Shown here: one piece after another, positions 525-29,785 of the stretch
Numbering within the stretch: the first letter of the stretch is position 1
Layout of the letters: every line of letters begins with the position of its first letter
Source of the DNA: Planctomycetota bacterium
GTDB taxonomy: Bacteria; Planctomycetota; Phycisphaerae; Sedimentisphaerales; Anaerohalosphaeraceae
Length of the DNA stretch: 37,293 nucleotides
NCBI GenBank assembly: GCA_023143375.1
Contig: JAGLHQ010000098.1
Span: 1-37,293 of the forward strand
Direction: 5' to 3'
The notes under the pieces: generated by a model
The model's database searches: none
What the model saw: only the letters and a program-made list of their open reading frames with translations
What the model was told of the DNA's origin: nothing
Program-made: the position numbers and the translations under genes

Positions 525-697
525 TTGATCCTCTACTATAATTCGTAACCGTTCACCGTTTTTTCCTGTCAATCATTCTAAACTCTCTTTTTGACAGGAT
601 TACAGGATTACTATAATTTTTTCATTTTTCTTTCTACTTCTGCCTTATCTTTGGCTAAATCCAAAACCAGCCCAGCAGGCTTGCAGTCCGCTGTAGG

Positions 698-713
698 GTG
701 TGCTTTAGCACAC
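698..713. repeat. Palindrome GTGTGCTTTAGCACAC
   Basis: A perfect 7-bp stem with a two-base centre (GTGTGCT-TT-AGCACAC) followed by CGCGTTTTT. It belongs to the set of palindromes with a CTTTAG-like centre seen at several intergenic places in this window. It lies inside the MITE-like element, so it is either part of that element or nested in it. On the plus strand the trailing T run would let it act as a weak terminator. Confidence 0.6.
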
Positions 714-2645: not shown

Positions 2646-3551
2646 CTAAAACAGCGTAACCTTACGCAGCGTGTCGAATCTTTCCTCAAGATCGGCCTTA
2701 TCGATAGCCTTGATACCATGAACCGAAAAATCACCGATAGTAAACGACGCAGCTACCGTTCCATAAACGATCGCATTACGCAGTGAGATAACGTCGAGCT
2801 TATTTGTCTCAGCCAGGTAGCCCATCATCGCACCTGCAAACGAATCGCCCGCACCTGTCGGATCGATCACGATAGCCGTCGGAAACGCCGGAAGGATGAA
2901 GCAATCGCCATCGGCATTACACATCATCGAACCGTACTCGCCCTTTTTGATTATCACAACCTTGGGCCCCATGTCGATAATATTCTGTGCAGCCGTCATC
3001 AAATTCCTGTGCCCGGTTAACAACCGTGCTTCACCTTCGTTGATAACCAGCATATCGATACGCTTAAGCAACTCCTTAAGATCGTCGATCGCCGTTACGA
3101 TCCAGTGGTTCATCGTATCCGCTGCCACGAACTTAGTACCCGAAAGCTGATCGAGCAACTGTATCTGCAAAGACGGTGCCGTGTTAGCAAGGAACACATA
3201 TTCGCTGTCTTTGTAAGCATCCGGAACCGCCGGAGGATCTTCGGCAAGCACATTCAGCTCAACACCGTCGGTGTTAGCCTCGTTCATTTCGCCTTCATAA
3301 GAACCCTGCCAGCGGAACGTTTTGCTGCCCTGCCTTATTTCCAAGCCTTCAAGATCAACATCTTTGCCTTCAAATGTTTCATGAAGATCGAACGGGCAGT
3401 CGTCGCCGACGACTCCGAGAAATCTGACCGGTGAAAAGAAATTCGCCGCCATACTGAAATGAACCGCCGAACCGCCAACGCAATTTTCGCTAAACCCAAA
3501 AGGCGTCTTAACTGTATCTATTCCTATCGAACCTGTTACTAATAATGACAT
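2646..3551 (-). CDS. PfkB-family carbohydrate/nucleoside kinase
   Basis: A 301-residue ribokinase-fold sugar or nucleoside kinase. The C-terminal PfkB signature DPTGAGDSFAGAMMGYL is at residues 230-246 with catalytic Asp236 in GAGD. The glycine pair of signature 1 (CVGGSAVHFS) is at 24-33. The substrate cannot be read from the sequence; the short N-terminus MSLLVTGSIGID and the NEGEARLL segment resemble adenosine-kinase-like and other PfkB proteins. The chosen ATG at 3551 lies one base after the gltX stop codon, and GGGGA inside the end of gltX can serve as ribosome site, so the two genes are translationally linked. An earlier in-frame TTG exists inside gltX but lacks support. Confidence 0.9.
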   Translation of the reverse strand: MSLLVTGSIGIDTVKTPFGFSENCVGGSAVHFSMAANFFSPVRFLGVVGDDCPFDLHETFEGKDVDLEGLEIRQGSKTFRWQGSYEGEMNEANTDGVELNVLAEDPPAVPDAYKDSEYVFLANTAPSLQIQLLDQLSGTKFVAADTMNHWIVTAIDDLKELLKRIDMLVINEGEARLLTGHRNLMTAAQNIIDMGPKVVIIKKGEYGSMMCNADGDCFILPAFPTAIVIDPTGAGDSFAGAMMGYLAETNKLDVISLRNAIVYGTVAASFTIGDFSVHGIKAIDKADLEERFDTLRKVTLF

Positions 3552-5429: not shown

Positions 5430-7877
5430 TTATTTGACAGGCAGCGAAACAAAGAACTTGCTTCCTTTTCCCGGTTCTGACTCGGCCCATATACACCCGC
5501 CGTTACGACCTAACGCACGCTTGGTGATCGTAAGACCAAGACCTTGACCGTCTGTTCCGTCATCAGGATTAAGACGATGGAACAACTGGAATATCTTGTA
5601 CTGATGGTCAGGGTGTATCCCAATACCGTTATCCTCAATGCAGTAGATGCTTTCTTTTTCGTAAGCTTCACCGCTGATCTTAATGGAACCTCGCCTTTCA
5701 GGGTCAAGGTATTTCAAGGCATTGCCCAATATATTGCTGAATACCTGGTTGACCTGTTCCGAATCACCGAGGCAATCAGGAAGGCGGGCCATGCTAACTT
5801 CGGCGTCAGCGTCGCTAATCTGAAATGCGAATGTATCTATTATATGCTGCATCATCTTGTTCATGTCAAGTGGTTTGATATCGATATGCTGGCTGCCTAT
5901 ACGAGAAACCTTCAAAAGACCGTCAAGAAGCACCTTCATTTTTATCGCACTGGCAGATATGAACTTTAAGGACTCAGGGATATCCTTTTCAGCTAAAGGC
6001 ATAAGACGCTTCATCACCTCATCACTGACATCAAGACCTTTAAGGATATTTATGATATCTTCACAACTCTCCTTGAGCATTGCACTAAAACCGTTAATAT
6101 TCACCAGCGGGCTTTTAAGATCGTGCGTTGCAATATAAACAATGCTCTGCAACTCATCGTTCTTGATCTCTAAAGTTTTCAGCAGCTTTTCAAGTTCTTT
6201 TTCATTCGCCATCAGTTGCTGATTAGAAGCCTTTAGCTGCTGTTCCGATGACATGAGTTGCTCGTTGAAAGACCGCAACTGCCTGCTTTTTGCAAGGTCC
6301 TCTTCCTCTGCCTGCTTGCGTTCGGTGATGTCACGGACTATTGCTTGCAGATGGACTTTTCCGAAGATATCCACCCGGTTCAATGAAACCTCCGCATCAA
6401 ATGGTGTGCCGTCGTATTTAGCATGTTTCCATTCAAAGAATTGCGGCTCGCCTTGCTGTGCGGCCTTAATTTTCTCAATAGCTTTCTCTTCAGAAGGCCG
6501 CCCGTCCGGCTGAACCTCTGTCGAAAAAAGAATCGGACTTTGACCTACTATCTGTTCCCGCATACAACCAAAAATCTCACAGGCCCTTTGATTGCACTCA
6601 GTAAATATGTTGCCCTCCATGATGAAAATTGCGTCATTGGCAGATTCAAACAATAATCTGTAACGTTCCTTATTTTCCTGCATCGCTTCTTCTGCACGCT
6701 TGCGTTCGGTAATATCATGCAGCATACCAATCGAACGGATGACCTTTCCGGATGCGTCTCGCTCATGGCTGCATTTCTCATGAATGATCCGAATACCCCC
6801 ATCGTCATTGCGTACAATGCGATGCTCGATTTCATAAAAGTCTTTCCCCTCTTCGACCGAGTTGGAATAAGCGGCATTCACAGCCTCGCGATCCTCCGGG
6901 TGCACCGCTCCAAGAAATGCCTCATAGGAAACTTCGAACTGTTCTGGAGCAAACCCGAATATCCGATAGACTTCGTCCGACCAGATGGTTTTATTGGTCA
7001 CACAATCGAGTTCCCAACTGCCAAGTTGAGCTATCTCCTGGGACTTGACCAGCATGAGGTTCTTCTCATACAACGCTTTCTCCGCACGCTTGCGGTCGGC
7101 AAGGGAAACCTGAAGGTTCGTGACCATAGTATTGAATGAGCCTGCAAGAAGTGTTAGCTCATCGTTTCCGTCTCGTTTAATATCTACCCTTGCCTTCTCC
7201 AGATGGTCAAGATCGACCTTTTCGGTTGCTCTGGTCAATATAGACAATGGCCTTTTCAAAATGGATCTGAAAATCCACAGGAAAATAAACCACAAAACTG
7301 TAATTTTAAAAACAGTCGTAACTATCAGTAACAAAAATCCCAGCTTCACTCTGCGAAAGATCACCGATGAACTGGAATATATCGTAGCTTCGCCAAGTTG
7401 TTTCGTTTGACCCTGATAGATGTAAACGATCGGGAATTGATGTTTAAAAAGCTGGTAATTGTACGCATCGCCTTTATGAACCGTCAATTCCTGTTGACTA
7501 ATGCCCAATATGTCAACATGCAAACCGACCTTACCAACTTCATCGTTCTGGGGGAGTATGCCCCCGGTAGCTATGTTCTTTCCGATGTCATTGTTTATCT
7601 CAACACCAACGACCGTAGTAACCTCCAGCATTCCTTTTACTGTAGACCGCAAAGACTCCTCACTCATATTCCACATCTCAACCGCCAGCGCGTGCTCGAA
7701 CGTTCTTTGAATGCCCTCCAGGTCACGGGTGATGTTATTTTTCTGATGGCGATATTCCATAACCATGTGACTCACCGTCACCACAGCGGCGATAACGATG
7801 TACAAAGCGAAAACCACCATCAGCAGCTTTGTTGCTATTGAATGTCTGACCCTCACCATATTTTCCTGTTTCGTCAT
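5430..7877 (-). CDS. Membrane sensor histidine kinase with two PAS domains (module 1)
   Basis: An 815-residue hybrid-free histidine kinase. Order: transmembrane segment at about 17-39, periplasmic sensing region at 40-178, second transmembrane segment at about 179-203, HAMP at about 204-258, PAS 1 at about 280-392, PAS 2 at about 402-518, a coiled linker, HisKA with phospho-accepting His585 in ATHDLKSPL, and HATPase with [14 protein letters not shown] (710-723), DNGIGI (749-754) and GQGLGLT (777-783). No receiver domain is attached and no response regulator gene is near. The ATG overlaps the stop codon of the upstream binding-lipoprotein gene (ATGA), implying translational coupling. The protein is a close paralogue of the kinase at 9659-11737, which has only one PAS domain. 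The periplasmic partner is probably the lipoprotein encoded just upstream. Confidence 0.95.
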
Positions 7878-9040
7878 TTGACAGTAACACCTTCCATAGC
7901 TTCATCCCATAATAATTTTAAACCGTTGCGGTCCCTTTTTGAGTAGGTGTGTTGCAGTATCCGATTCTCGCTGAAGAAATTCGGCTGCCCAACATGCAAT
8001 CGTTCCTTTTCTTCGGCTGTCAACAGATCGCCAATATTGGTAACTATTGGAGTCATCGACATGAGCCGCATTGTATGGTTAATCTGGTGTTCTGTCGAGA
8101 GTAATTTGTTGATGTACTCCTCCGCGACTTTCTTTAAAAACGGCTTATCCGCCAACGCCCAAGTGATCGCATAGTTATAGATCCAGCACGGCATCCCCTC
8201 AGAAGGCTCGGCCATTTTCCATGGTTCCCCACGCTTCTTAAGCGAGTCCAGCGAGTCTCCCCATGATGTGGCAAGAGGCTTGCCCGCGAGATCATCGGGT
8301 TTATCCACGCCAACCCAAAAAGAATTCGCATTGACAGCCAGTTGCCTCAACTTATCTTTGAACTCTTTGTTGTTTAATTTGTCATAACTGCTAATAGATT
8401 CTCTCGGATATCCCAACGCCAACGCAGTGATGTTGCAATTATATATGTATTCGTTTGCAGCTATAACGTATTTACCCTTAAAACGCCGGTCCCACAGTAT
8501 ATCCCAACTCGCCGGCTCATCTTTCAGCAAAGCCGTATTATAAGCCAACCCGTACGGCCCCTGACTGATTGGGGATGCATATACCTTTCCGTCGCTGTAC
8601 AAATGTTCTGCCGTCTGAAGGACAGGTATTACGTGCTGAAAATTCGGTATATTCTTCAAGTCAAGCGGTAGCAAAAGCTTGTTCCGAATGTATTTGAAGC
8701 GTTCGTCCTTGTAATGGTGATGCATCATCATAACCATATCAACGCTTTTGTCTCTTACCGAGTCATAGAAATCATCGGAACCTGTCACATACGCAACTTC
8801 CAGTTTCACTTTGCGATCGTATTTCGTCTCGATATATTTCTCGAATTTCTCGACATGCGCTTTCGAAGCGTGCCCCTCCCAGACCAACAGCCGCAGTACA
8901 TCATCTTGACGCTGAACAGCCTGAGGTTCCGTTTGGGTTTCCTGGGTGGAAACTTCCGGAGCCTTCTTACGGCACCCCGTTGCAAGAACAACACATGACA
9001 GGATCATCAATGTAATTATTGTTTTCAAGTAACATTTCAT
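7874..9040 (-). CDS. PotD-like periplasmic binding lipoprotein (module 1)
   Basis: A 388-residue extracellular solute-binding protein of the PotD/SBP_bac_8 type. The lipoprotein signal peptide ends at the lipobox LATGC with Cys23. The mature fold shows segments typical of spermidine/putrescine-binding proteins: LRLLVWEGH near the start, [32 protein letters not shown] and the late EYINKLLS region. No permease or ATPase gene is nearby, so a transport role is unlikely; the overlap with the kinase gene suggests a ligand-sensing role, by analogy with NspS, the PotD-like partner of MbaA in Vibrio. The ligand is not known. ATG at 9040 has AAGGGAG upstream. It follows the porin-like gene by 28 bases. 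Confidence 0.92.
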
Positions 9041-9068
9041 GGCATCTCCCTTATATCAATATCACAAT

Positions 9069-9539
9069 TTAGAATTCAAATCCATATGATATACCAACCC
9101 AAAACTCGTCTTCTGTGTTGATAGTTTTTTCCATCGATGTCTGGTAGTACAAAGCGGGAGTTATAGTGCCGCTTCCAACTTCAAAGCTTGTTGACAGGCC
9201 CCACGTCATGTGTGACCAGTCATGGTCAACGGCTGATCCTTGACCGTCATTGTAAGTTATGTCCCAGCTAAATGTAAGCGGATTCTCAATTATCTCCAGG
9301 TCAGGCAGATCGCAACTGAAACCGAACAGGTGCGTAAAGCCCTCGACCTTATCAGCAGTTATGGCCCCGCCGCCATGGGCGGCGTGATCGTCATAAATAT
9401 CCTGGCCCCTCCAGATGTACTTACTTACCCAGGTGACATCATAGGAAATACCCAATTCCTTTTCATCTCCACCCGCAAAAGCGATTGAAATATTACCGTT
9501 CAATACAACAGCAATGATAAGTATTACCAGTTTTTTCAC
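9069..9539 (-). CDS. Small outer-membrane porin-like protein
   Basis: A 156-residue exported protein. A signal peptide (MKKLVILIIAVVLNG... to IAFAG) is followed by a region rich in alternating residues beginning SYDVTWVSKYIWRGQDIYDD. This resembles the start of the TorF/Gcw_chp group of putative porins, where a WxSxYxWRG pattern recurs. The last residue is Phe (SYGFEF), as in outer-membrane barrels. It is shorter than the 220-260 residues I would expect, so it may be a reduced barrel with an internal deletion. The start is GTG at 9539 with AAGGAC about 10 bases upstream. It heads the operon porin - binding lipoprotein - histidine kinase; the second module lacks this gene. A ligand-entry role is possible but is inference. 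Confidence 0.72.
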   Translation of the reverse strand: MKKLVILIIAVVLNGNISIAFAGGDEKELGISYDVTWVSKYIWRGQDIYDDHAAHGGGAITADKVEGFTHLFGFSCDLPDLEIIENPLTFSWDITYNDGQGSAVDHDWSHMTWGLSTSFEVGSGTITPALYYQTSMEKTINTEDEFWVGISYGFEF

Positions 9540-9596
9540 ATCTATGTCCTTATCTGTTTCTTTCTAAACCCGTTATGAATATACATATCCGTATTT

Positions 9597-9644
9597 GTCG
9601 GCAAAATCGAAAGGATTTTGTGAGGATAATCCGGATTAAAACGG
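9597..9644 (-). promoter_or_regulatory. Conserved upstream element of sensory operon 1
   Basis: This stretch aligns with 12946-12999, the region upstream of the second sensory operon. Shared pieces, in plus-strand order, are TCGRCAAAA, AGG, TGAGGATAATCC, ATT and AAAC. The two operons otherwise differ at their 5' ends (porin gene here, lipoprotein gene there), so conservation of this block suggests a common promoter or operator. The core is TGAGGATAATCCGGA; at the other copy it is a perfect inverted repeat. Confidence 0.55.
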
Positions 9645-9658
9645 CAATCATGCAAAGT

Positions 9659-11737
9659 TTAGACAGCCACAGGCAGCGAAACAAAGAACTTACTCCCTTT
9701 GCCCGGTTCCGATTCGACCCATGTCCAACCGCTGTTACGATCTAAGGCTCGCTTGGTTATTGTAAGGCCCAGACCCTGGCTATCGGTTGCATCATCCGGA
9801 TTAAGGCGATGGAACAGTTCGAATACTTTACCCTGATGATTCTTATGTATTCCAATACCGTTATCTTCGACGCAATAGATACATTCGCTGTTATCGCATC
9901 TGCCTGTGATATTGATGGAGCCTTTTCTTTCCGGGTCAAAGTACTTTATGGCATTGCCTATGATATTGCTGAATACCTGATTGACAAGCTTTTCGTCACC
10001 CTTACAACCCGGCAACTCTTCGATCGTTACAGATACATCCTGCTCTTTGATCTGGAATGCGAATGTATCTGCTATGTCATGGACCATCTTGTTCATGTCC
10101 AGCGAGTCAATATCGACCTCTTGGCTGCCAACACGAGAAACCTGCAACAGACCGTCAAGAAGCATTTTCATCTTGCTGGTTCCGGCAGATATAAACCCTA
10201 AAGATTCAGGGATTTCTTCATCGATCAAGGGAACTATCCGATGCATTGCTTCATCCCTTACATCAATATCTTTTAATCTCTCTGTAATCTCTCTACAGGT
10301 TTTATTAAGCATATCACTAAAGCCGGTAATATTTACCAGCGGACTCTTAAGATCGTGTGAGGCAATATAAACAATGCTCTTCAACTCTTCGTTCTTGGCA
10401 GAAATATCCTTTAAAAGTTTTTCGCGTTCTTTTTCATTTGTGATTAGTTGCTGGTTAGATGCCTTTAGCTGCTGTTCTGATGACATAAGTTGTTCGTTGA
10501 AAGATCGCAGTTGTTTGTTCTTTTCAATGATCTCTGCCTCCGCCTGCTTGCGCTCGGTGATGTCCATAAAAGTTACAACGGACCCTGTTATTTCGCCATC
10601 GCGTCTTGTAGGATACGACCAGAATTCCGCCGGGAAACTCGTCCCGTCTGCCCGCCACAGAACCTCACCGTCAATATGAACACCCTTTCCAACCTGAAAC
10701 GCCTTATAGATTTGGCATTTCTCGATCGAACAGGCCGACCCGTTGGTATGCGTATGATGAATAACCTCGTGCATGTTTTTGCCAGGAATGTCTTCGGCAC
10801 TATTATATCCAAGCAACTCCAAACAAGCCCGATTGCAGAATGTACAATTGCCATTAAGATCCAAACCGTAAATAGATTCAGCCGTTGAATTGAGCAGCAT
10901 GCGAACCTGCTCCTCGCTTTCCCGAAGTGCCTCCTCGGCACGCTTACGCTCGTCAAGCGATGCCTGAAGGTTCGTGACCATATCATTGAATGAGCCTGCA
11001 AGAAGTGTTAGCTCATCGTTTCCGTCTCGTTTAATATCTACCCTTGCTTTCTCCAGATGATCCAGATCGACTCTCTCGGTTGCTGCGGTCAATATCGACA
11101 AAGGCCTTTTCAAAATAGACTTGAAAATCCACTGAAAAATAAACCACAAGATAGTAATTTTAAAAACAGTCGTAACTACCAGTAATAAAAATCCCAGCTT
11201 CACTCTTCGCAAAATCACAGATTTATTGGAATATATCGTAGCTTCGCCAAGCTGTTTCTTGTCATCATCAAAAGTGTAAACAATTGGAAATCGGTGCTCA
11301 AAAAGTTCGTAATCAGATTCGTCTCCCCGACGATGCATCGAGTGCGTGTGCTTACGGCTCATCATATGAATATGCAGATCAAGCCTGCCAACCTCCCCGT
11401 CCTGTTCAATTATTCCTCCCGTAGTTATACTGTTTCCGCTATCATCGCTGATCTTAACACCAACGATCACAGGTATTTTCAACATTCCTTTCAACGTCAA
11501 ATGCAAGGACTCCTGATCCATTTTCCACATGTCAACCGCCATCGCATGCTCGAACGTTCTTTGAATGTCCTCAAGATCATGGCTGATGTTGTTTTTCTGG
11601 TACCGATATTCCATAACCATATGACTTATCGTCACCACAGCCGCAATAATGATGTATAAAGCGAAAACCACCCGCAGCAACTTTGTTGCTATTGAATGCC
11701 TGCCCCTTACCGTATTTTCCGGTTTCATAGCCCTCAT
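9659..11737 (-). CDS. Membrane sensor histidine kinase with one PAS domain (module 2)
   Basis: A paralogue of the kinase at 5430-7877, 692 residues from ATG at 11737. Order: transmembrane segment at about 20-42, periplasmic region to about 180, second transmembrane segment to about 205, HAMP, one PAS domain at about 280-395, coiled linker, HisKA with phospho-accepting His near residue 461 (ASHDLKSPL) and HATPase with DNGIGI and GQGLGLT. The periplasmic region carries a His/Met-rich loop (HIHMMSRKHTHSMHRR) absent from the paralogue. ATG overlaps the lipoprotein stop as TGATG; GTG at 11740 and ATG at 11728 are alternative starts. No receiver domain and no response regulator are nearby. The binding lipoprotein encoded upstream is the likely periplasmic partner. 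Confidence 0.94.
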   Translation of the reverse strand: MRAMKPENTVRGRHSIATKLLRVVFALYIIIAAVVTISHMVMEYRYQKNNISHDLEDIQRTFEHAMAVDMWKMDQESLHLTLKGMLKIPVIVGVKISDDSGNSITTGGIIEQDGEVGRLDLHIHMMSRKHTHSMHRRGDESDYELFEHRFPIVYTFDDDKKQLGEATIYSNKSVILRRVKLGFLLLVVTTVFKITILWFIFQWIFKSILKRPLSILTAATERVDLDHLEKARVDIKRDGNDELTLLAGSFNDMVTNLQASLDERKRAEEALRESEEQVRMLLNSTAESIYGLDLNGNCTFCNRACLELLGYNSAEDIPGKNMHEVIHHTHTNGSACSIEKCQIYKAFQVGKGVHIDGEVLWRADGTSFPAEFWSYPTRRDGEITGSVVTFMDITERKQAEAEIIEKNKQLRSFNEQLMSSEQQLKASNQQLITNEKEREKLLKDISAKNEELKSIVYIASHDLKSPLVNITGFSDMLNKTCREITERLKDIDVRDEAMHRIVPLIDEEIPESLGFISAGTSKMKMLLDGLLQVSRVGSQEVDIDSLDMNKMVHDIADTFAFQIKEQDVSVTIEELPGCKGDEKLVNQVFSNIIGNAIKYFDPERKGSINITGRCDNSECIYCVEDNGIGIHKNHQGKVFELFHRLNPDDATDSQGLGLTITKRALDRNSGWTWVESEPGKGSKFFVSLPVAV

Positions 11738-12903
11738 CACTCGACGTTGATTCCTTCCATGGCCTCATCCCACAACAATTTTAAACCGTTGCGGTCCCTT
11801 TCTGAATAGGTGTTTTGCAAAATTCGATTCTCGCGGAAGAAATTCGGAGTTCCAATGTGCAATCGTTCCCTTTCTTCAACTGTCAACAGATCGCCGGTGT
11901 TTGTAATTATTGGGGTCAGTGACATCAATCGCGTTATATGATTAATCTGATATTCAGTTGAGAGAAATCTATTGATGCACTCCTCAGCCACCTTCTTAAG
12001 AAATGGCTTATCAGCCAGCGTCCAGGTGATCGTATAATTATCGATCCAGCATGACGTACCCTCTTTCGGCTCAGCCATTTTCCAAAGCTCACCTCTTTCC
12101 TTTAGCCCGCTCATCGAGTCGCCCCACGCTGTAGCCAAAGGCTTACCGGCAAGATCGTCAACTCTGTCAGCACCGATCCAGAAAGAGTGAGCACCGGCAG
12201 CCAGTTGCCTCAACTTATCTTTAAACTCCTTGTTGTTTAGTGCATCGTAACTGCTGACCGATTCTTTCGGATACCCCAACGCCAATGCGGTAATGTTACA
12301 GTTATATATATATTCGTTTGCACCTATGACATACTTGCCCTTGAAACGCGGTTCCCATAGTATATTCCAACTGGAAGGCTCCTCTTTCAGTATGCCGGTG
12401 TTGTACGCCAGCCCGTAAGGACCATGGCTAACCGGCGATGCATACACCTTTCCGTCACTACACAGGTACTCCGCGTTTTGCAGAGTAGGTATCACATTCT
12501 TGAAGTTGGGTATGTTCTTCAGATCAAGCGGCAAAAGAAGCCCGTTCTCGATGTATTTGTATCGCTCGTCTCTAAAATGATGATGCGTCAGCAAAACCAG
12601 ATCAACGCGCTTGCTCCTTATTAATTTATACCAATCATCAGGACCGGACAAATACACCAGCTGTACTTTCACTTTTCGTCCGTACTTCGTTTCGATATAT
12701 TTCTCGAAATCTTCGACAAATTGTTTTGGAGTGTGCCCCTCCCCAGTCAGAATTCGCAAAACATCCTCTTGAACCGAAACAGGCTGAGCCTCCGCCTGGC
12801 CTTGCTCGCCAGCCCGCTGCGGAGCTTTCTTACGGCATCCCACCGCAAGAACAAGGCATGACAAAATAATTAACACGATAATTGACTCAAAACGGTGATT
12901 CAT
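11737..12903 (-). CDS. PotD-like periplasmic binding lipoprotein (module 2)
   Basis: A 388-residue paralogue, of identical length, of the protein at 7874-9040. The lipobox is LAVGC with Cys23. The same landmarks recur: [51 protein letters not shown]. The N-terminal lobe is less conserved (EDVLRILTGEGHTPKQFV here against [18 protein letters not shown]), so the ligand may differ. No ABC permease or ATPase gene accompanies it. ATG at 12903 has AAGGGG upstream. The gene ends inside the start of the kinase gene. It is divergent from the cysteine synthase gene. Confidence 0.92.
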   Translation of the reverse strand: MNHRFESIIVLIILSCLVLAVGCRKKAPQRAGEQGQAEAQPVSVQEDVLRILTGEGHTPKQFVEDFEKYIETKYGRKVKVQLVYLSGPDDWYKLIRSKRVDLVLLTHHHFRDERYKYIENGLLLPLDLKNIPNFKNVIPTLQNAEYLCSDGKVYASPVSHGPYGLAYNTGILKEEPSSWNILWEPRFKGKYVIGANEYIYNCNITALALGYPKESVSSYDALNNKEFKDKLRQLAAGAHSFWIGADRVDDLAGKPLATAWGDSMSGLKERGELWKMAEPKEGTSCWIDNYTITWTLADKPFLKKVAEECINRFLSTEYQINHITRLMSLTPIITNTGDLLTVEERERLHIGTPNFFRENRILQNTYSERDRNGLKLLWDEAMEGINVE

Positions 12904-12945
12904 GGTTTTCCCCTTAGAATGCTCAACATTTTACAAAACCTCGAT

Positions 12946-12999
12946 ACTTATCGACAAAACCCGGAGGCGTCTTGAGGATAATCCTCATTCAAACAACGG
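12946..12999 (-). promoter_or_regulatory. Conserved upstream element of sensory operon 2
   Basis: This copy matches 9597-9644. At its centre, 12973-12987, is the perfect inverted repeat TGAGGATAATCCTCA (7-base arms around one base), a plausible operator for a dimeric regulator. It ends 43 bases before the lipoprotein start codon. The adjoining 13000-13110 is AT-rich and shows nothing else I can name. Confidence 0.55.
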
Positions 13000-13110
13000 T
13001 TTTTTAGGGTTGCCCCGCAAAATAAAAACCGCAAAAAAACCACGCTTTTTCCCGCAATTCTCTAAAAAACACCATTTTTACCACTCCGATATTTTTTTTT
13101 GTTGTTTTTT

Positions 13111-13119
13111 TGCTATAAT
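13111..13119 (+). promoter_or_regulatory. Extended -10 promoter of the cysteine synthase gene
   Basis: TGC followed by the perfect hexamer TATAAT (13114-13119). No good -35 is present; the upstream stretch is T-rich. The predicted transcription start near 13126 leaves a leader of about 28 bases that carries the AGGAG ribosome site. Confidence 0.7.
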
Positions 13120-13153
13120 ACAGAGGTTAATCAATCGCATCAGGAGAATATTA

Positions 13154-14062
13154 ATGTCAATACTATCTTCAATCGGCAATACACCGCTTGTGGAGTTGAA
13201 AAAGCTTAACGAAAACCCGAACGTCAAAGTCTTCGCCAAACTCGAAGGCTCAAACCCGGGCGGATCGATAAAGGACCGCCCTGCGCTGTATATGATCGAA
13301 AAAGCCGAAGAGACCGGCGAACTGACCAAAGACAAGATCATCATAGAGCCAACCTCTGGAAACACCGGCATCGCACTTGCAATGATCGGAGCGGCAAAGG
13401 GGTACAAAGTAAAACTAACACTCCCCGGATGTGTCAGTTCCGAAAGACGCTCGATTCTCGAAGCCTTCGGCGCTGAGGTCGTAATCACAAAAGCGTGCCA
13501 CAAGACCGACGGAGCAATACGTAAGTGCCATGAGCTATACGCCGCCAATCCCGACAAATACTTCTTCCCAAACCAGTTCGCAAATCCAAATAACCCGCTT
13601 AGCCACTATGAAACAACGGCACCGGAGATATTCGATCAAACCGACGGAAAGATAGACGTTTTCATTGCAGGCATGGGAACGACAGGGACGCTTATGGGAA
13701 TATCGAAATTTTTCCGTGAGCAGGCTAAAAACATTAAGATCATTGGAGTAGAGCCTACCCTCAACCACACAATACAAGGTCTTAAAAATATGAAAGAAGC
13801 AATTGTGCCCGATATTTATGACACAGATATGCTTGACGATATAATCGTAATGGAAGACGAAGAAGCCTTTGAAATAACAAAAAGACTTGCCGTAGAAGAA
13901 GGTATCTTCGCCGGTATCTCAAGCGGAGCCGCTATCGCCGGGGCTCTTCGCGTCGCAAAACAGATGGACTCCGGCGTCATCGTTACCATCATCCCAGACA
14001 GAGGAGACCGTTACCTGAGCACCAACCTCTTCCGCTCAGTATGCGCCGAATGCCCCCCGTAA
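13154..14062 (+). CDS. Cysteine synthase (CysK/CysM family)
   Basis: A 302-residue PLP-dependent enzyme that makes cysteine from O-acetylserine (or a related activated serine) and sulfide. The PLP lysine is Lys40 in NPGGSIKDRPA; the phosphate loop PTSGNTGIALA is at 66-76. MGTTGTLMG and the C-terminal SSGAAIAG also fit. The start is ATG at 13154 with AGGAG upstream; an open frame extends to 12902 but lies before the promoter and has no conserved content. The short C-terminus, ending in CAECPP, and the LTLPGCVSSERR segment look closer to CysM than to CysK. It is not in an operon with other sulfur genes. Confidence 0.93.
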   Translation: MSILSSIGNTPLVELKKLNENPNVKVFAKLEGSNPGGSIKDRPALYMIEKAEETGELTKDKIIIEPTSGNTGIALAMIGAAKGYKVKLTLPGCVSSERRSILEAFGAEVVITKACHKTDGAIRKCHELYAANPDKYFFPNQFANPNNPLSHYETTAPEIFDQTDGKIDVFIAGMGTTGTLMGISKFFREQAKNIKIIGVEPTLNHTIQGLKNMKEAIVPDIYDTDMLDDIIVMEDEEAFEITKRLAVEEGIFAGISSGAAIAGALRVAKQMDSGVIVTIIPDRGDRYLSTNLFRSVCAECPP

Positions 14063-24154: not shown

Positions 24155-27100
24155 ATGTTAAGAAAGAGATGTATTGCACTAATGTTAATTGAGGTTCTGT
24201 GCATGTTGAGGACAACGGTAATGAAAGGGTTTCATCGAAACACAGTTTTTTATTCCAAGGGAAGAAGTGCAATGTCCAATCGTAGTGTTTGTTTCATTAT
24301 ATTTTGTTTGTTATTGGCGAATGTAACATTTGCTAAAGGGATTGCCCCTAAAGAGGTATCTTCAGATAACAAAATAATACTGGATTACGAATTTGAGGCG
24401 CCATCAACTTCCAAAGATGTACAGTATGACATAGTTGGCATCGATGGTTTGGCAGATTTTTCTAAGGTAGGGGCACCAGTAGTGCCGGTACAAAATGCAA
24501 CTATTCTGATCCCTTACGGCAAGAAGGTTTCGAAAATCGAAGCAGTGGCATCGGAGTCTGTGAACCTGGACGGTTCATATTTGCTTCGTCCAGGGCAAAA
24601 ACCTGTTCCTCGTTCTTTAATTGCCGAGGCAGTACCAACAAAGCCCGATCCAAAGTACTATAGCAGTAAGCAAGCCTGGCCGGGCAAATATATTAAAAAG
24701 GTAACCACACAGAATCAAAGAGGCTATAAATTACTTATTCTGAATCTCTTTCCTGTTCAGTATGTTCCATCCGAAGGCAAAGTTTCTTATATAAGAAAAC
24801 TAAAGCTTGAGATAACTTTGTCAGAAAGTGACAAGAAGGCTATTTTGAGGCCAGATGGCAAAACAAAAAAAATAATTAAAAGCAAGATCGACAACCCTTC
24901 TTCTGTTAGCAGCTATGAATCTGAAGAAATCGGAAGTTCAGATCAGTCAGGACTGATTCTCGAGGATGTTCAGAGGTCAGGGAAAAGCATTGCTGCAAAC
25001 AAATCGCTACGTGTAGCCAGGAACAAAGCAGGTTTTTTGAAGCATGTTGGCGCTCCGTCAGGTACACAAATTCATGTACGTGATAGCGAGAAGTATAACC
25101 CCGAACAGATTGCGGATAATTTTTTGGAGCAGCAGAAAAAACTTTTTGTAAAAGACAGTTCTAATGTGGCTTTTAAAAAGAAGCGTGTTAAAACTATTCC
25201 CGGTCGTAAAACCAGAACACATGTTCGTTATCAGCAGACCTATGCCGGTATAGAAGTTTTTAACGGCGAACTTATCGTACATGTTAATGACACAAAGGGT
25301 ATTTCTGCAGTATTTAGTGACATAATGGTCGATACGGATATACTCGATAATGGAGAGGTTTCCGTTAATCCTACTCTTGATCGATTGACAGCACGTGAAA
25401 ATGCTGTTGAGTGGCTGAGTTCGCAGAATGAGGGACTTGAAATACAAGCGTCAGAGGCAACCCTTATGGTCTTTGATCCATCCGTTGTAGACCAGAAGGG
25501 GGATGTTCGGTTGGTATGGAAAATTGAAGTTGGCAATGTCGGCGTTCCTAAAGTGAAAGAAATCGCTCTTGTGGATGCACATACGGGCAGCATTGCATTT
25601 CATTATTCCCTGATATACGGGTTAGTGGACCGAGAAATTTACGATTACAGCAACGGTTCTTCTCTCGAACGTTCCGAAGGCGATCCGGTTTCCGGAATAC
25701 CAGCAGTTGACAACGTATACGATTATATCGGTGATACTTATGATTTTTATTTGTCCTATCACGGTCGAGAAGGTTACGACGACCTCGACTCCACGGTGAA
25801 AGCTTATGTTAAAGTTGATTTTGACAATGCTATGTGGAGCGGCAATTCGATGTACGTCGGTGTCGGTAACGATATAGATGACATTGTAGCCCATGAGTTT
25901 ACGCATGGTGTAACTGCCAGCGAATCGGGATTGATCTATAGCAATCAGTCTGGCGCTATTAACGAATCTTTTTCCGATATATGGGGAGAGTTCGTCGACC
26001 TTACCAACAATGCAGGTGATGACTCGGCGGGTGTTCGTTGGCGACTTTTTGAAGACTGGTATTGCTGGGGCGATCCGGACTGGGGCGAATATCCGAATTG
26101 CAGAATATGGAGAAGGATGGACTTCCCGGAAGAGGTGTTTGCCGATAGCAGTTACGGTTATACAGACGATATAGGACGACACCCCGATCGGTTCCTTAGC
26201 CCTTATTATTATTTTGGTACATCTGACGGAGGGGGAGTTCACCATAACAGTTCTGTAGGTAATAAACTATGTTACTTGCTAACCGACGGTGATACCTTTA
26301 ACGGTTATACGATCTCTCCGATGGGTATAGCAACAGTTGCCGACCTTTTCTATGAATGTCAAACTAATTCGCTGACATCATCGAGCAATTATTTCGATCT
26401 CGGAAATGACCTAGTTCAGGCTGCTATCGATCTTGATTTGACTCGGGCCCAAATTGACAATGTCAAAAAAGCTTGTCGTTCGGTTGAGATTTATTTTGAT
26501 CCCGATAGTGATGACCTGAGCATGAGGTATGCAGTTATTACCAGTGCTGCTTTAGCAGATATGGACAACATGCAAGACCCTAATTACAGTTTCCAGGCTT
26601 TATGCGATAGCAAAAGAGCTCGCGGTATTAGTGCGGGAATAATTACTACCGAATGGATATATTCAAATTACACCGGTCAGGATTCACAGGAAAAGATTCG
26701 GAATTTCATAAGTGATGCCTATGAGAACTGGGGGCTTGAGTTTGTGTTACTTGGTGGAGATAAAGGGATCATTCCGCCTCGTATGTTCTATCCCGGCGGT
26801 TTGTATTGGGGTGGCGGAATAGCATCTGATATGTATTACGGTTGCCTTGACGGTTCTTTTGATTCCAGCGGTAATGGTAAATATGGCGAAGTTGGCGATG
26901 GGGCGGATTTCGGTAGTGATAGCGAGGTTGACCTTATTGCTGAAGTATATATAGGCCGTGCATCTGCTGAAGATCCTAACGAAGTTAATAATTTTGTAAG
27001 AAAAACACTTGCATACGAGTCGACAGATGACGACTACCTGAACAATGCCCTTAGCTCTTCAGAAACTCTTACTCCAGGGTCAGATCCCTACTGGTGCAAA

Positions 27101-29785
27101 CCTTACGCTGAACTTATACGTCTTGGTTCAAGTGAAGGCGGTTTTACGACAGTTGGATTTGAGAATCCTACGTTGCCGTATCACAGGAATTTTAATGTGA
27201 CGACATTATATGATGCCGATTACGAATTTGACGGAACATTTGATTATAACGAGGACGGCTGGTCTTCACCAAACGAATTGATCCCCTTGTTGAATGGTCA
27301 AGTTGGTTCCGGTACGCCTCATATGATGTATCACGGTGCTCACGGCAACGAGCAATACTGCATGAAGACATATTTGAATGATGATAATTTTGGAATCGGA
27401 GGAATGGGCAACGATCCCGATCTTTATGGAAAGCTGGACACACTTACGAATACCAACTACTTCTTTATCTATGACGATTCGTGTTTGTCGGGTAACTTTG
27501 CCTATACAGATTGTTGGGCAGAAGTTGCTACAACAATGGATCATGGTGCTTTTGCGATCATAATGAGTTCTGAGGTTGTAGCTTCCAATGGCGGAACTAA
27601 CTGGCCTTCAACTCGTATTGTTCGTGAATTCTTCGACGAGTTGCTCGGTGACGGTAATTTCGAACTTGGAGTTGCGCATTTCAATTCAAAAGAAGGAAGC
27701 ATAGGAAGTATTTCCGATGTTGTAGTTCGCGCTACATATTATCAGTTCAATCTTTTTGGCGATCCTGAACTGAAAATGCGCACATTGCAAGATGAAACCG
27801 GTATCGAGAATGTTACCAGGAAGAATTATTACGATACTATCCAGGAAGCTATCGATGATCCTAACACTCTTGACGGTGATGTTATTGTCCTGGATACTGC
27901 AACATATTCCGGTATAGGCAACCGTGATATAGATTTTAAGGGTAAGTCTATAACAATTAGAAGTATCGACCCCGACGACCCTAGTATTGTTTCCGCTACG
28001 ATTATCGATTGCGATGGTACAAGGGCCGAGCCTCACAGAGGATTCTATTTCCATAACGGTGAATCATCCGGTTCTATAATCGAGGGTCTTACGATCACGG
28101 ACGGTTACGGCGATTTTCAGGGCGATTATTACGCAGGCAGCGGTATCATGTGCGATGGAAGCAGTCCTCAGATAATCAAGTGTGTAATCACCGGTAACGG
28201 AAACGATTCAGTTAATGACGATGTAGATGCCGGCGGAATTGCCTGCTACAACAACTCTAATCCGTTGATATCTGACTGTACCATTAGCAATAATACAGCC
28301 TACTGGTCAGGAGCGATCGACTGTTGGAACAGCAGTCCTGTTATCCGTAATTGTGTCATTAGCGGTAACACAGCTCAGTGGGGCGGTGCAATTTATTTCT
28401 ACGAGAACTGTAATGCCACGCTGGAGAACTGTACAGTCATAAACAACACTGCGATAAACAATGGCGGCGCTCTGATCATGTATCAGGCAACTCCTACAAT
28501 AACAAGCTCTATTGTTTGGGGTAACACGGCAACAATAGGCAGCCAGGTTTATATAGAAGATCTCAATTACGATCCTTTGTTTAGTTACTGTGATATCGAG
28601 GACAGTTTCTCTGGCGGCATCTGGAGATCTGGATTAGGTATTAACGGCGGCGGCAACATCAGCATTGATCCTAATTTTGTTGATGCTGCCAATGGAGATT
28701 ATCATCTGACCCCGCTTTCTCCCTGTATTGATACCGGTGATCCAAGCGGCTCTTATACCGGTCAGACAGATATTGACGGTGATGTTCGTGTGATCGGTGG
28801 TGATGTTGATATGGGTGCCGATGAGTTTAGGCAGGGTGCTCACAATATCGATCAAGACGTCTGGTATGTGATTATTCAGGATGCGATCGATGATGCCTCA
28901 ACTGATGATGTTATAATGGTTTATCCGGGCACATATGAAGAAAATATTGATTTTGACGGTAAGGCGATAACTGTCCGCAGCACCGATCCCGATAACTGGG
29001 CTGTTGTGGCTGAAACGATCATCGATGCCACTGGCATGGGGTATGGGTATGACACCGTCAAATTTGAAAGCGGTGAGGATGCCAGTTCATTCCTGAAAGG
29101 TTTTACAATAATAAATGATTATAATGCTTACGGCATATCATGTTCTGGTTCCTCACCTACTATCGGCAATTGTATTATAGAAACAGCCATGGTTGGGATA
29201 TATTGTAATTCCTCTTTGCCGGCGATAAGCGATTGTATTGTGAGAGACACTGACATTCTCGGTATTATGTTGTATAACTCTTCTGCGGTTATCAGTAATT
29301 GTATCGTGAGCAATACTTGCATGTCTGGTATATCATGTTCTTCCGAGTCCTCTGCGGTTATCAGCAATTGTGTCATAGCCGATACCGATGACGGCGGCAT
29401 AAGCTGCGATTCTACCTCTTCTTTGGAAATAAGCAACAGTACTATAGTTAACAACACTTACTACGGAGTATCCTGCTCGTCTGCTACTATTACCAACTGT
29501 ATTATTTGGGGAAATGGTGACGATCTCTCTGGGTGCAGTGCTACATATAGCTGTTTCTCAGGCGGGACAGGAACGAACATAAGTTCTGATCCGTTATTTG
29601 AGACGGGTACATTTGGTGATTACTATCTGAGCGAAGATGCTATTGAAGGGCAGGAAGATGACAGTCCTTGTATTGATGCCGGTAGTGATACGGCTGCTAA
29701 CCTTGGCTTAGACGAGCTTACCACCAGAACCGATGATGTTACTGATTCCGGTACTGTAGATATGGGTTACCACTATCAGCCGTAA
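24155..29785 (+). CDS. Giant secreted double protease (M4 + C25) with beta-helix regions
   Basis: 1,876 residues from ATG 24155; a signal peptide starts at Met40 (24272: MSNRSVCFIIFCLLLANVTF), which has its own GGAAG site, so that start is possible. Next comes a gingipain-like propeptide (about 75-190, VGAPVVPVQNATILIPYGKK), then FTP/PepSY-like inhibitory regions (about 295-490). The thermolysin-type M4 domain follows: HEFTH at 580-584, third zinc ligand Glu604 in GAINESFSD (the same 24-residue spacing as H142-E166 in thermolysin) and GGVHHNS with His696. A C25 gingipain-like domain (about 785-1200) has YHGAHG (His1063 probable) and DDSCLSGNF (Cys1110). Two beta-helix regions (about 1220-1555 and 1565-1870) end in VDMGADEF and VDMGYHYQ. 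Codon use is AT-rich compared with glnS. It is probably secreted and degrades extracellular protein. Confidence 0.93.
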   Translation: MLRKRCIALMLIEVLCMLRTTVMKGFHRNTVFYSKGRSAMSNRSVCFIIFCLLLANVTFAKGIAPKEVSSDNKIILDYEFEAPSTSKDVQYDIVGIDGLADFSKVGAPVVPVQNATILIPYGKKVSKIEAVASESVNLDGSYLLRPGQKPVPRSLIAEAVPTKPDPKYYSSKQAWPGKYIKKVTTQNQRGYKLLILNLFPVQYVPSEGKVSYIRKLKLEITLSESDKKAILRPDGKTKKIIKSKIDNPSSVSSYESEEIGSSDQSGLILEDVQRSGKSIAANKSLRVARNKAGFLKHVGAPSGTQIHVRDSEKYNPEQIADNFLEQQKKLFVKDSSNVAFKKKRVKTIPGRKTRTHVRYQQTYAGIEVFNGELIVHVNDTKGISAVFSDIMVDTDILDNGEVSVNPTLDRLTARENAVEWLSSQNEGLEIQASEATLMVFDPSVVDQKGDVRLVWKIEVGNVGVPKVKEIALVDAHTGSIAFHYSLIYGLVDREIYDYSNGSSLERSEGDPVSGIPAVDNVYDYIGDTYDFYLSYHGREGYDDLDSTVKAYVKVDFDNAMWSGNSMYVGVGNDIDDIVAHEFTHGVTASESGLIYSNQSGAINESFSDIWGEFVDLTNNAGDDSAGVRWRLFEDWYCWGDPDWGEYPNCRIWRRMDFPEEVFADSSYGYTDDIGRHPDRFLSPYYYFGTSDGGGVHHNSSVGNKLCYLLTDGDTFNGYTISPMGIATVADLFYECQTNSLTSSSNYFDLGNDLVQAAIDLDLTRAQIDNVKKACRSVEIYFDPDSDDLSMRYAVITSAALADMDNMQDPNYSFQALCDSKRARGISAGIITTEWIYSNYTGQDSQEKIRNFISDAYENWGLEFVLLGGDKGIIPPRMFYPGGLYWGGGIASDMYYGCLDGSFDSSGNGKYGEVGDGADFGSDSEVDLIAEVYIGRASAEDPNEVNNFVRKTLAYESTDDDYLNNALSSSETLTPGSDPYWCKPYAELIRLGSSEGGFTTVGFENPTLPYHRNFNVTTLYDADYEFDGTFDYNEDGWSSPNELIPLLNGQVGSGTPHMMYHGAHGNEQYCMKTYLNDDNFGIGGMGNDPDLYGKLDTLTNTNYFFIYDDSCLSGNFAYTDCWAEVATTMDHGAFAIIMSSEVVASNGGTNWPSTRIVREFFDELLGDGNFELGVAHFNSKEGSIGSISDVVVRATYYQFNLFGDPELKMRTLQDETGIENVTRKNYYDTIQEAIDDPNTLDGDVIVLDTATYSGIGNRDIDFKGKSITIRSIDPDDPSIVSATIIDCDGTRAEPHRGFYFHNGESSGSIIEGLTITDGYGDFQGDYYAGSGIMCDGSSPQIIKCVITGNGNDSVNDDVDAGGIACYNNSNPLISDCTISNNTAYWSGAIDCWNSSPVIRNCVISGNTAQWGGAIYFYENCNATLENCTVINNTAINNGGALIMYQATPTITSSIVWGNTATIGSQVYIEDLNYDPLFSYCDIEDSFSGGIWRSGLGINGGGNISIDPNFVDAANGDYHLTPLSPCIDTGDPSGSYTGQTDIDGDVRVIGGDVDMGADEFRQGAHNIDQDVWYVIIQDAIDDASTDDVIMVYPGTYEENIDFDGKAITVRSTDPDNWAVVAETIIDATGMGYGYDTVKFESGEDASSFLKGFTIINDYNAYGISCSGSSPTIGNCIIETAMVGIYCNSSLPAISDCIVRDTDILGIMLYNSSAVISNCIVSNTCMSGISCSSESSAVISNCVIADTDDGGISCDSTSSLEISNSTIVNNTYYGVSCSSATITNCIIWGNGDDLSGCSATYSCFSGGTGTNISSDPLFETGTFGDYYLSEDAIEGQEDDSPCIDAGSDTAANLGLDELTTRTDDVTDSGTVDMGYHYQP

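Follow-up and report, generated by a model that had tools for sequence, protein, structure and literature searches.

We analyzed a window of 37,293 nucleotides from a Planctomycetota bacterium (assembly GCA_023143375.1, contig JAGLHQ010000098.1, positions 1 to 37,293), in which two neighboring sensory operons share a block of upstream DNA with a palindromic core (Table 1). The two operons carry a tandem-duplicated unit composed of genes for a solute-binding protein (SBP) and a histidine kinase (HK), and the shared block is probably the promoter region of this unit, as judged from the sequence comparisons described below. An apparent operator common to unrelated operons would thereby be recast as a duplicated promoter region.

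Tandem duplication of an SBP-kinase sensory unit

Operon 2 consists of SBP2 followed by HK2, and operon 1 of a 156-amino-acid open reading frame (ORF), SBP1, and HK1. The encoded SBPs are 71% identical and the kinases 62-63% identical. At the DNA level, two long stretches can be aligned between the units, one at 76% across 1930 columns and the other at 74% across 899 columns; the PAS part, in which the kinases differ, is not included. In trees built with the homologues of other bacteria, HK1 and HK2 form a clade with support of 100/100, and SBP1 and SBP2 form a clade with support of 82/92. The units are thus adjacent, on the same strand, and in the same order, and their products are mutual closest homologues, with the SBP clade below the usual support. 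The homology ends outside the units: the DNA downstream of the two kinases gave no alignment beyond shuffles (382 of 500 shuffles reached the score), and the copies did not align upstream of GTTT.AAT. Among the 15 bases preceding the SBP1 and SBP2 start codons, 10 positions are still identical. Based on the paralogy, the gene order, and the end of homology, we concluded that the two units are a tandem duplication.

The SBP and kinase genes would have been duplicated together with their promoter region, in a segment starting just upstream of the block and ending past the kinase gene; such a segment would explain why the copy 1 block starts directly past the HK2 stop codon. The small porin-like gene, which lies between the copy 1 block and SBP1, would have either entered at this position or disappeared from copy 2. 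The first genes of the two operons had been described as unrelated, and they do differ (the 156-amino-acid ORF versus an SBP lipoprotein), although the remainder of the operons is paralogous and the second gene of operon 1 is the paralogue of the first gene of operon 2. The similarity of the two blocks can be explained by the common descent of both units.

In both units the SBP gene is adjacent to a gene for a periplasmic-sensor kinase, as in SBP-dependent sensor kinase systems, and by analogy with them the SBP presumably presents its ligand to the membrane kinase.

The shared block and its candidate promoters

Both copies of the block lie on the reverse strand and align as GTTT.AAT..GGATTATCCTCA...CCT...G.TTTTG.CGA.AA.TA. 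The alignment itself, as originally proposed, was confirmed: its score of 56.5 was reached by none of 2000 dinucleotide shuffles, the top shuffle scoring 56.0. When real upstream DNA served as the control, 25 of the 9870 pairs among 141 upstream regions of the genome scored at least 56.5, and the best other upstream partner of copy 2 scored 55.0 in a long, gappy alignment. The similarity of the blocks is therefore notable mainly because the pair was named in advance by paralogy.

The copy 2 block overlaps a candidate sigma-70-type promoter. Promoter usage was assessed in 151 upstream regions taken from approximately 374 kb of the genome, where the numbers of regions with TTGN3-N16/17/18-TAWWWT were 16, 13, and 7 for the sense orientation and 8, 3, and 2 for the antisense orientation, respectively. 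The copy 2 candidate fits this usage, and its spacing falls within the 16- to 18-nt range. Transcription would accordingly begin from a promoter of the TTGTCG-N18-TAAAAT type inside the block, and the preserved 12-bp core might serve as an upstream regulatory contact for an activator or a response regulator. If the promoter reading is right, the core centers at about -59 and -57 relative to the inferred starts. A shared promoter had been named as the other possible meaning of the block, and this half of the proposal is the better supported one with respect to copy 2; copy 1 fits it less well, as discussed below.

The constraint on the block was evaluated against neutral divergence. Four-fold degenerate sites are identical between the copies at 44/96 positions in the SBP genes (46%) and at 101/172 positions in the kinase genes (59%), or 54% when pooled by hand, and the verdict varies with which of these three neutral rates is chosen. 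The identical 12-bp core GGATTATCCTCA arose in 3-4% of simulated neutral pairs at 54% and in less than 1% at 46%. The preservation of the core is thus mild and rate-dependent evidence for its function, whereas the block as a whole provides none at the pooled rate.

Several results weigh against our interpretation. The support of 82/92 for the SBP clade is under the usual threshold. The copy 1 promoter candidate has a spacing of 15 nt, which is not clearly enriched in the genome (5 regions sense, 3 antisense), and promoter-like sites in positions 9000-13200 number 8 versus 8.6 expected by chance; since this count is not above chance, the promoter is one that we infer. The spacer of copy 1 aligned with an unrelated upstream region elsewhere in the genome (L152, gene at 8483) at a score of 57.0, in a longer and gappier alignment. 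Finally, the block score was reached by 41-55% of simulated neutral pairs at the pooled rate of 54% and by 74-90% at the kinase rate of 59%, compared with 6-10% at the SBP rate of 46%, and at the kinase rate the 12-bp core had a P value of 0.05-0.08.

Alternative explanations of the block

These neutral simulations bear on the possibility that the block is leftover similarity from the duplication, with no present function beyond some promoter. We consider such a relic possible but clearly less probable than a preserved promoter region. The block score is what it would predict at the pooled and kinase rates, and the predicted RNA folds were no better than those of shuffled sequences (z-scores of 0.53, 0.21, -1.42, and -0.79). 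It is disfavored by the block score and, more strongly, by the 12-bp word at the SBP rate (P of 0.06-0.10 and <0.01, respectively), and the word appeared in just 3-8% of neutral runs at 54-59%.

A dedicated operator is unlikely. According to this explanation, HK1 and HK2 would phosphorylate one orphan response regulator, whose binding to TGAGGATTATCCTCA, immediately 5' of the -35 element, would exert feedback on both operons. The core does form a perfect inverted repeat in copy 2, as had been stated (positions 12973-12987, with arms of 7-1-7), and its 12 bp are common to both copies. Such a repeat with a loop of up to 1 nt occurred in 54 of 5000 shuffles of 100-nt segments from this intergenic DNA, while any 7-bp-armed repeat with a loop of up to 6 nt occurred in 242 of 2000 shuffles of the 251-nt spacer. 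Neither kinase has a receiver-domain match, and a separate regulator would therefore be needed. The location of the core near -59/-57 would suit an upstream activator, as this upstream position matches activator geometry. In autoregulated two-component operons, the operator lies upstream of the -35 element; the short inverted repeat upstream of a candidate sensor-operon promoter resembles that arrangement, but here it is perfect in one copy only and, within the mismatch limits applied, was not seen at any other non-coding position in the genome. A further analogy is provided by the AioXSR system, whose regulator binds a conserved sequence upstream of its target promoter (PMC5908839).

The distribution of the core argues against an operator. 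In copy 1, 2 of the 14 arm bases depart from the palindrome, and the genome, which is 85.6% complete, contains a single perfect copy of it. The 11 other near-copies with one mismatch (7 other TGAGGA-N3-TCCTCA sites and 4 other 13-mer near-copies) lie in ORFs of 100 codons or more in 10 cases and, by eye, in a short coding frame in the remaining case, the ORFs being script-found frames rather than curated genes. The genome has 39 receiver-domain matches. A scan of the loci that together cover all of them, with flanks of at most 1.5 kb or as far as the contig end, gave 8 distinct sites at no more than 3 mismatches; all 8 fell within ORFs, and GGATWATCC had no exact match. No further non-coding core site was thus detected genome-wide at these mismatch limits, with more degenerate sites not searched for genome-wide, or in the receiver loci. 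Six regions upstream of homologous SBP genes showed no copy of the block, and the kinases of four close relatives are hybrids with their own receiver and therefore do not point to a regulator partner. The proposal that the core binds the missing response regulator, for which sites near other promoters or response-regulator genes would have been expected, has consequently gained no support.

A stricter form of the same idea, in which the two duplicated receiver-less kinases report to a single orphan response regulator acting via GGATTATCCTCA on both operons and nowhere else, appears improbable on the sequence data. If true, the palindrome would be a private operator coupling two diverging sensors in one feedback loop; the mild preservation of the core is all that speaks for such an operator. 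Overall, the block is probably a promoter region of the ordinary kind, belonging to a duplicated sensory module, with a putative regulator site in the core being possible but unsupported.

An operator conserved across the order was also considered and rejected. With up to one mismatch, TGAGGATWATCCTCA has 51 sites in 40 of 161 genomes versus 3 for the reversed pattern, and a hand estimate for random DNA is approximately 46. Exact sites outside the window number 7, and all of them fall within ORFs. Of the 43 one-mismatch sites, 25 were examined: 23 fall within ORFs and 2 (L106 and L131) between ORFs. The excess of exact sites (8 versus approximately 1 expected by hand) we take to be coding bias, which is unproven. 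A Desulfocapsa genome has 25 matches to GGATTATCCTCA at one mismatch, compared to 3 for the reversed pattern.

Least probable is a promoter or repeat element shared genome-wide, such as an alternative sigma factor site, a dispersed repeat, or an RNA motif: when one mismatch is allowed, TTTTGYCGATAA matches the genome 130 times versus 75 times for the reversed pattern, and TTTTGTCGATAA occurs 159 nt before the start of another gene (L152, gene at 7433), but in the 151 upstream regions TTTTGYCGAYAA was found just twice (0.8 expected), in copy 1 and in L152 outside the window, GYCGATAA was found 6 times in sense and 3 times in antisense versus 6.8 expected on both strands, and an Rfam search gave no match in the region or the window. 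The upstream region of SBP2 itself is outside this set, in our view owing to its overlap with a longer frame of the divergent gene. We see no sign that the conserved TTTTGYCGAYAA itself is a motif used upstream of genes throughout the genome. A sigma-28-like interpretation of GYCGATAA was dropped, as these counts are not clearly enriched, and the fold and Rfam results likewise led us to reject an RNA hairpin or riboswitch.

Relatives and origin of the sensory unit

The SBP is rare in its own lineage, with matches in 1 of 39 genomes of the family (the window's own), 2 of 161 of the order, 2 of 397 of the class sample, and 2 of 392 of the phylum sample, the own genome included. Close SBP-kinase modules were identified in a Desulfocapsa metagenome-assembled genome (L041) and in three genomes of its order (L061, L062, and L063); SBP matches occur in 6 of 242 genomes of that order. 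As in the window's units, the SBP gene of these four modules is followed by a gene for a CHASE5 kinase; their SBPs share 64-69% identity with SBP2. In contrast to the window, each of the four genomes has one SBP match, and the kinase is a hybrid with a C-terminal receiver domain, which the window kinases lack. Across the family, order, class, phylum, and Desulfocapsa-order samples, two SBP matches were seen in no genome but the window's own. Since the SBP is rare in its own lineage and the close modules are found in the Desulfocapsa order, the SBP-kinase pair of the window may have been transferred between phyla before its duplication.

The six upstream regions compared with the block were those of L041, L062, and L061 (71 nt before the SBP frame) and of three distant relatives (28, 35, and 39% identity). 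None matched the block better than at rank 21 of 300 shuffles; the better of the ranks obtained for the L041 region was 28 of 300, and that for the L045 region was 21 of 300. Weak look-alikes, to be taken as leads only, are TGAGAACTTTCCTCA in L041 (3 mismatches, approximately 290 nt before the SBP start) and TGAGGAATAATCC in L045. The latter locus (L045 228-3581) holds the second SBP match of the window's own order, a 39% relative encoded beside a chemoreceptor (methyl-accepting chemotaxis protein, MCP) instead of a kinase.

Known SBP-dependent sensor kinase systems include AioX-AioS-AioR (PMC5908839) and CuaD-CuaS-CuaR (PMC10384115), and TorT and LuxP are named in the former report. Both systems resemble the units reported here in that the SBP is encoded beside a membrane histidine kinase, and differ from them in that here an SBP_bac_6 protein is combined with a CHASE5 kinase, no response-regulator gene is adjacent, and the whole pair is tandem-duplicated. 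Our literature search found nothing on CHASE5 with an SBP and kinase, nor on tandem duplication with an SBP and kinase. The useful fact to emerge is a tandem-duplicated SBP-kinase pair with an extra gene behind one promoter and with kinases devoid of the receiver domain that related kinases have. The two copies offer a natural test of joint sensor and promoter divergence.

Features of the window and additional observations

Table 1. Features of the two sensory operons (window positions)
Feature	Position	Strand	Description
Candidate sigma-70-type promoter, copy 2	12928..12957	-	TTGTCG-N18-TAAAAT; 9/12 matches; 24 nt before SBP2 start codon
Weak promoter candidate, copy 1	9578..9604	-	TTGCCG-N15-TATATT; read from sequence, aligned with copy 2
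Shared block, copy 2	12946..12999	-	Upstream of SBP2; local alignment with copy 1, score 56.5
Shared block, copy 1	9597..9644	-	Upstream of porin-like ORF; local alignment with copy 2
Perfect 15-bp inverted repeat, copy 2	12973..12987		TGAGGATTATCCTCA (TGAGGATAATCCTCA on +); 7-1-7 arms
Palindrome counterpart, copy 1	9621..9635		TCCGGATTATCCTCA on -; 2 mismatches; GGATTATCCTCA identical
SBP2	11737..12903	-	Solute-binding lipoprotein, SBP_bac_6; lipobox by eye
HK2	9659..11740	-	CHASE5-HAMP-PAS-HATPase histidine kinase; no receiver-domain match
Porin-like ORF, 156 aa	9069..9539	-	Signal-peptide-like start by eye; weak Gcw_chp similarity; copy 1 only
SBP1	7874..9040	-	SBP2 paralogue, SBP_bac_6; lipoprotein signal by eye
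HK1	5430..7877	-	HK2 paralogue, CHASE5-HAMP-PAS-HATPase; one additional PAS domain

The CHASE5 domain of HK1 scored just under the family cut-off (24.7 versus 27 bits). The earlier assignment of the 156-amino-acid ORF as a porin is weak: its similarity to Gcw_chp (E value of 0.011) falls below the family cut-off, and an NCBIfam search of the ORF gave no match.

Copy 1 has an inverted repeat of its own, CAAAATC-N5-GATTTTG (window 9602-9620), located between the core and the -35-like sequence, and its counterpart in copy 2 is imperfect by eye. Receiver-domain matches of the genome occur in runs of five at two loci (G000:C397:11431-13496 and G000:C68:1503-3387). A 1876-amino-acid ORF on the forward strand of the window (24155-29785) combines a thermolysin-type M4 peptidase, a C25 (gingipain-type) peptidase, and a right-handed beta helix. 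A dispersed inverted-repeat element with GTGTGCTRAAGCACACCC, flanked by ACGC before and TAC(A/G)GC after, occurs three times in approximately 374 kb of the genome, namely at window positions 696-713 on the reverse strand and upstream of the ORFs at 3186 and 5932 of another contig (L145, G000:C36); two of the three occurrences are just upstream of genes.

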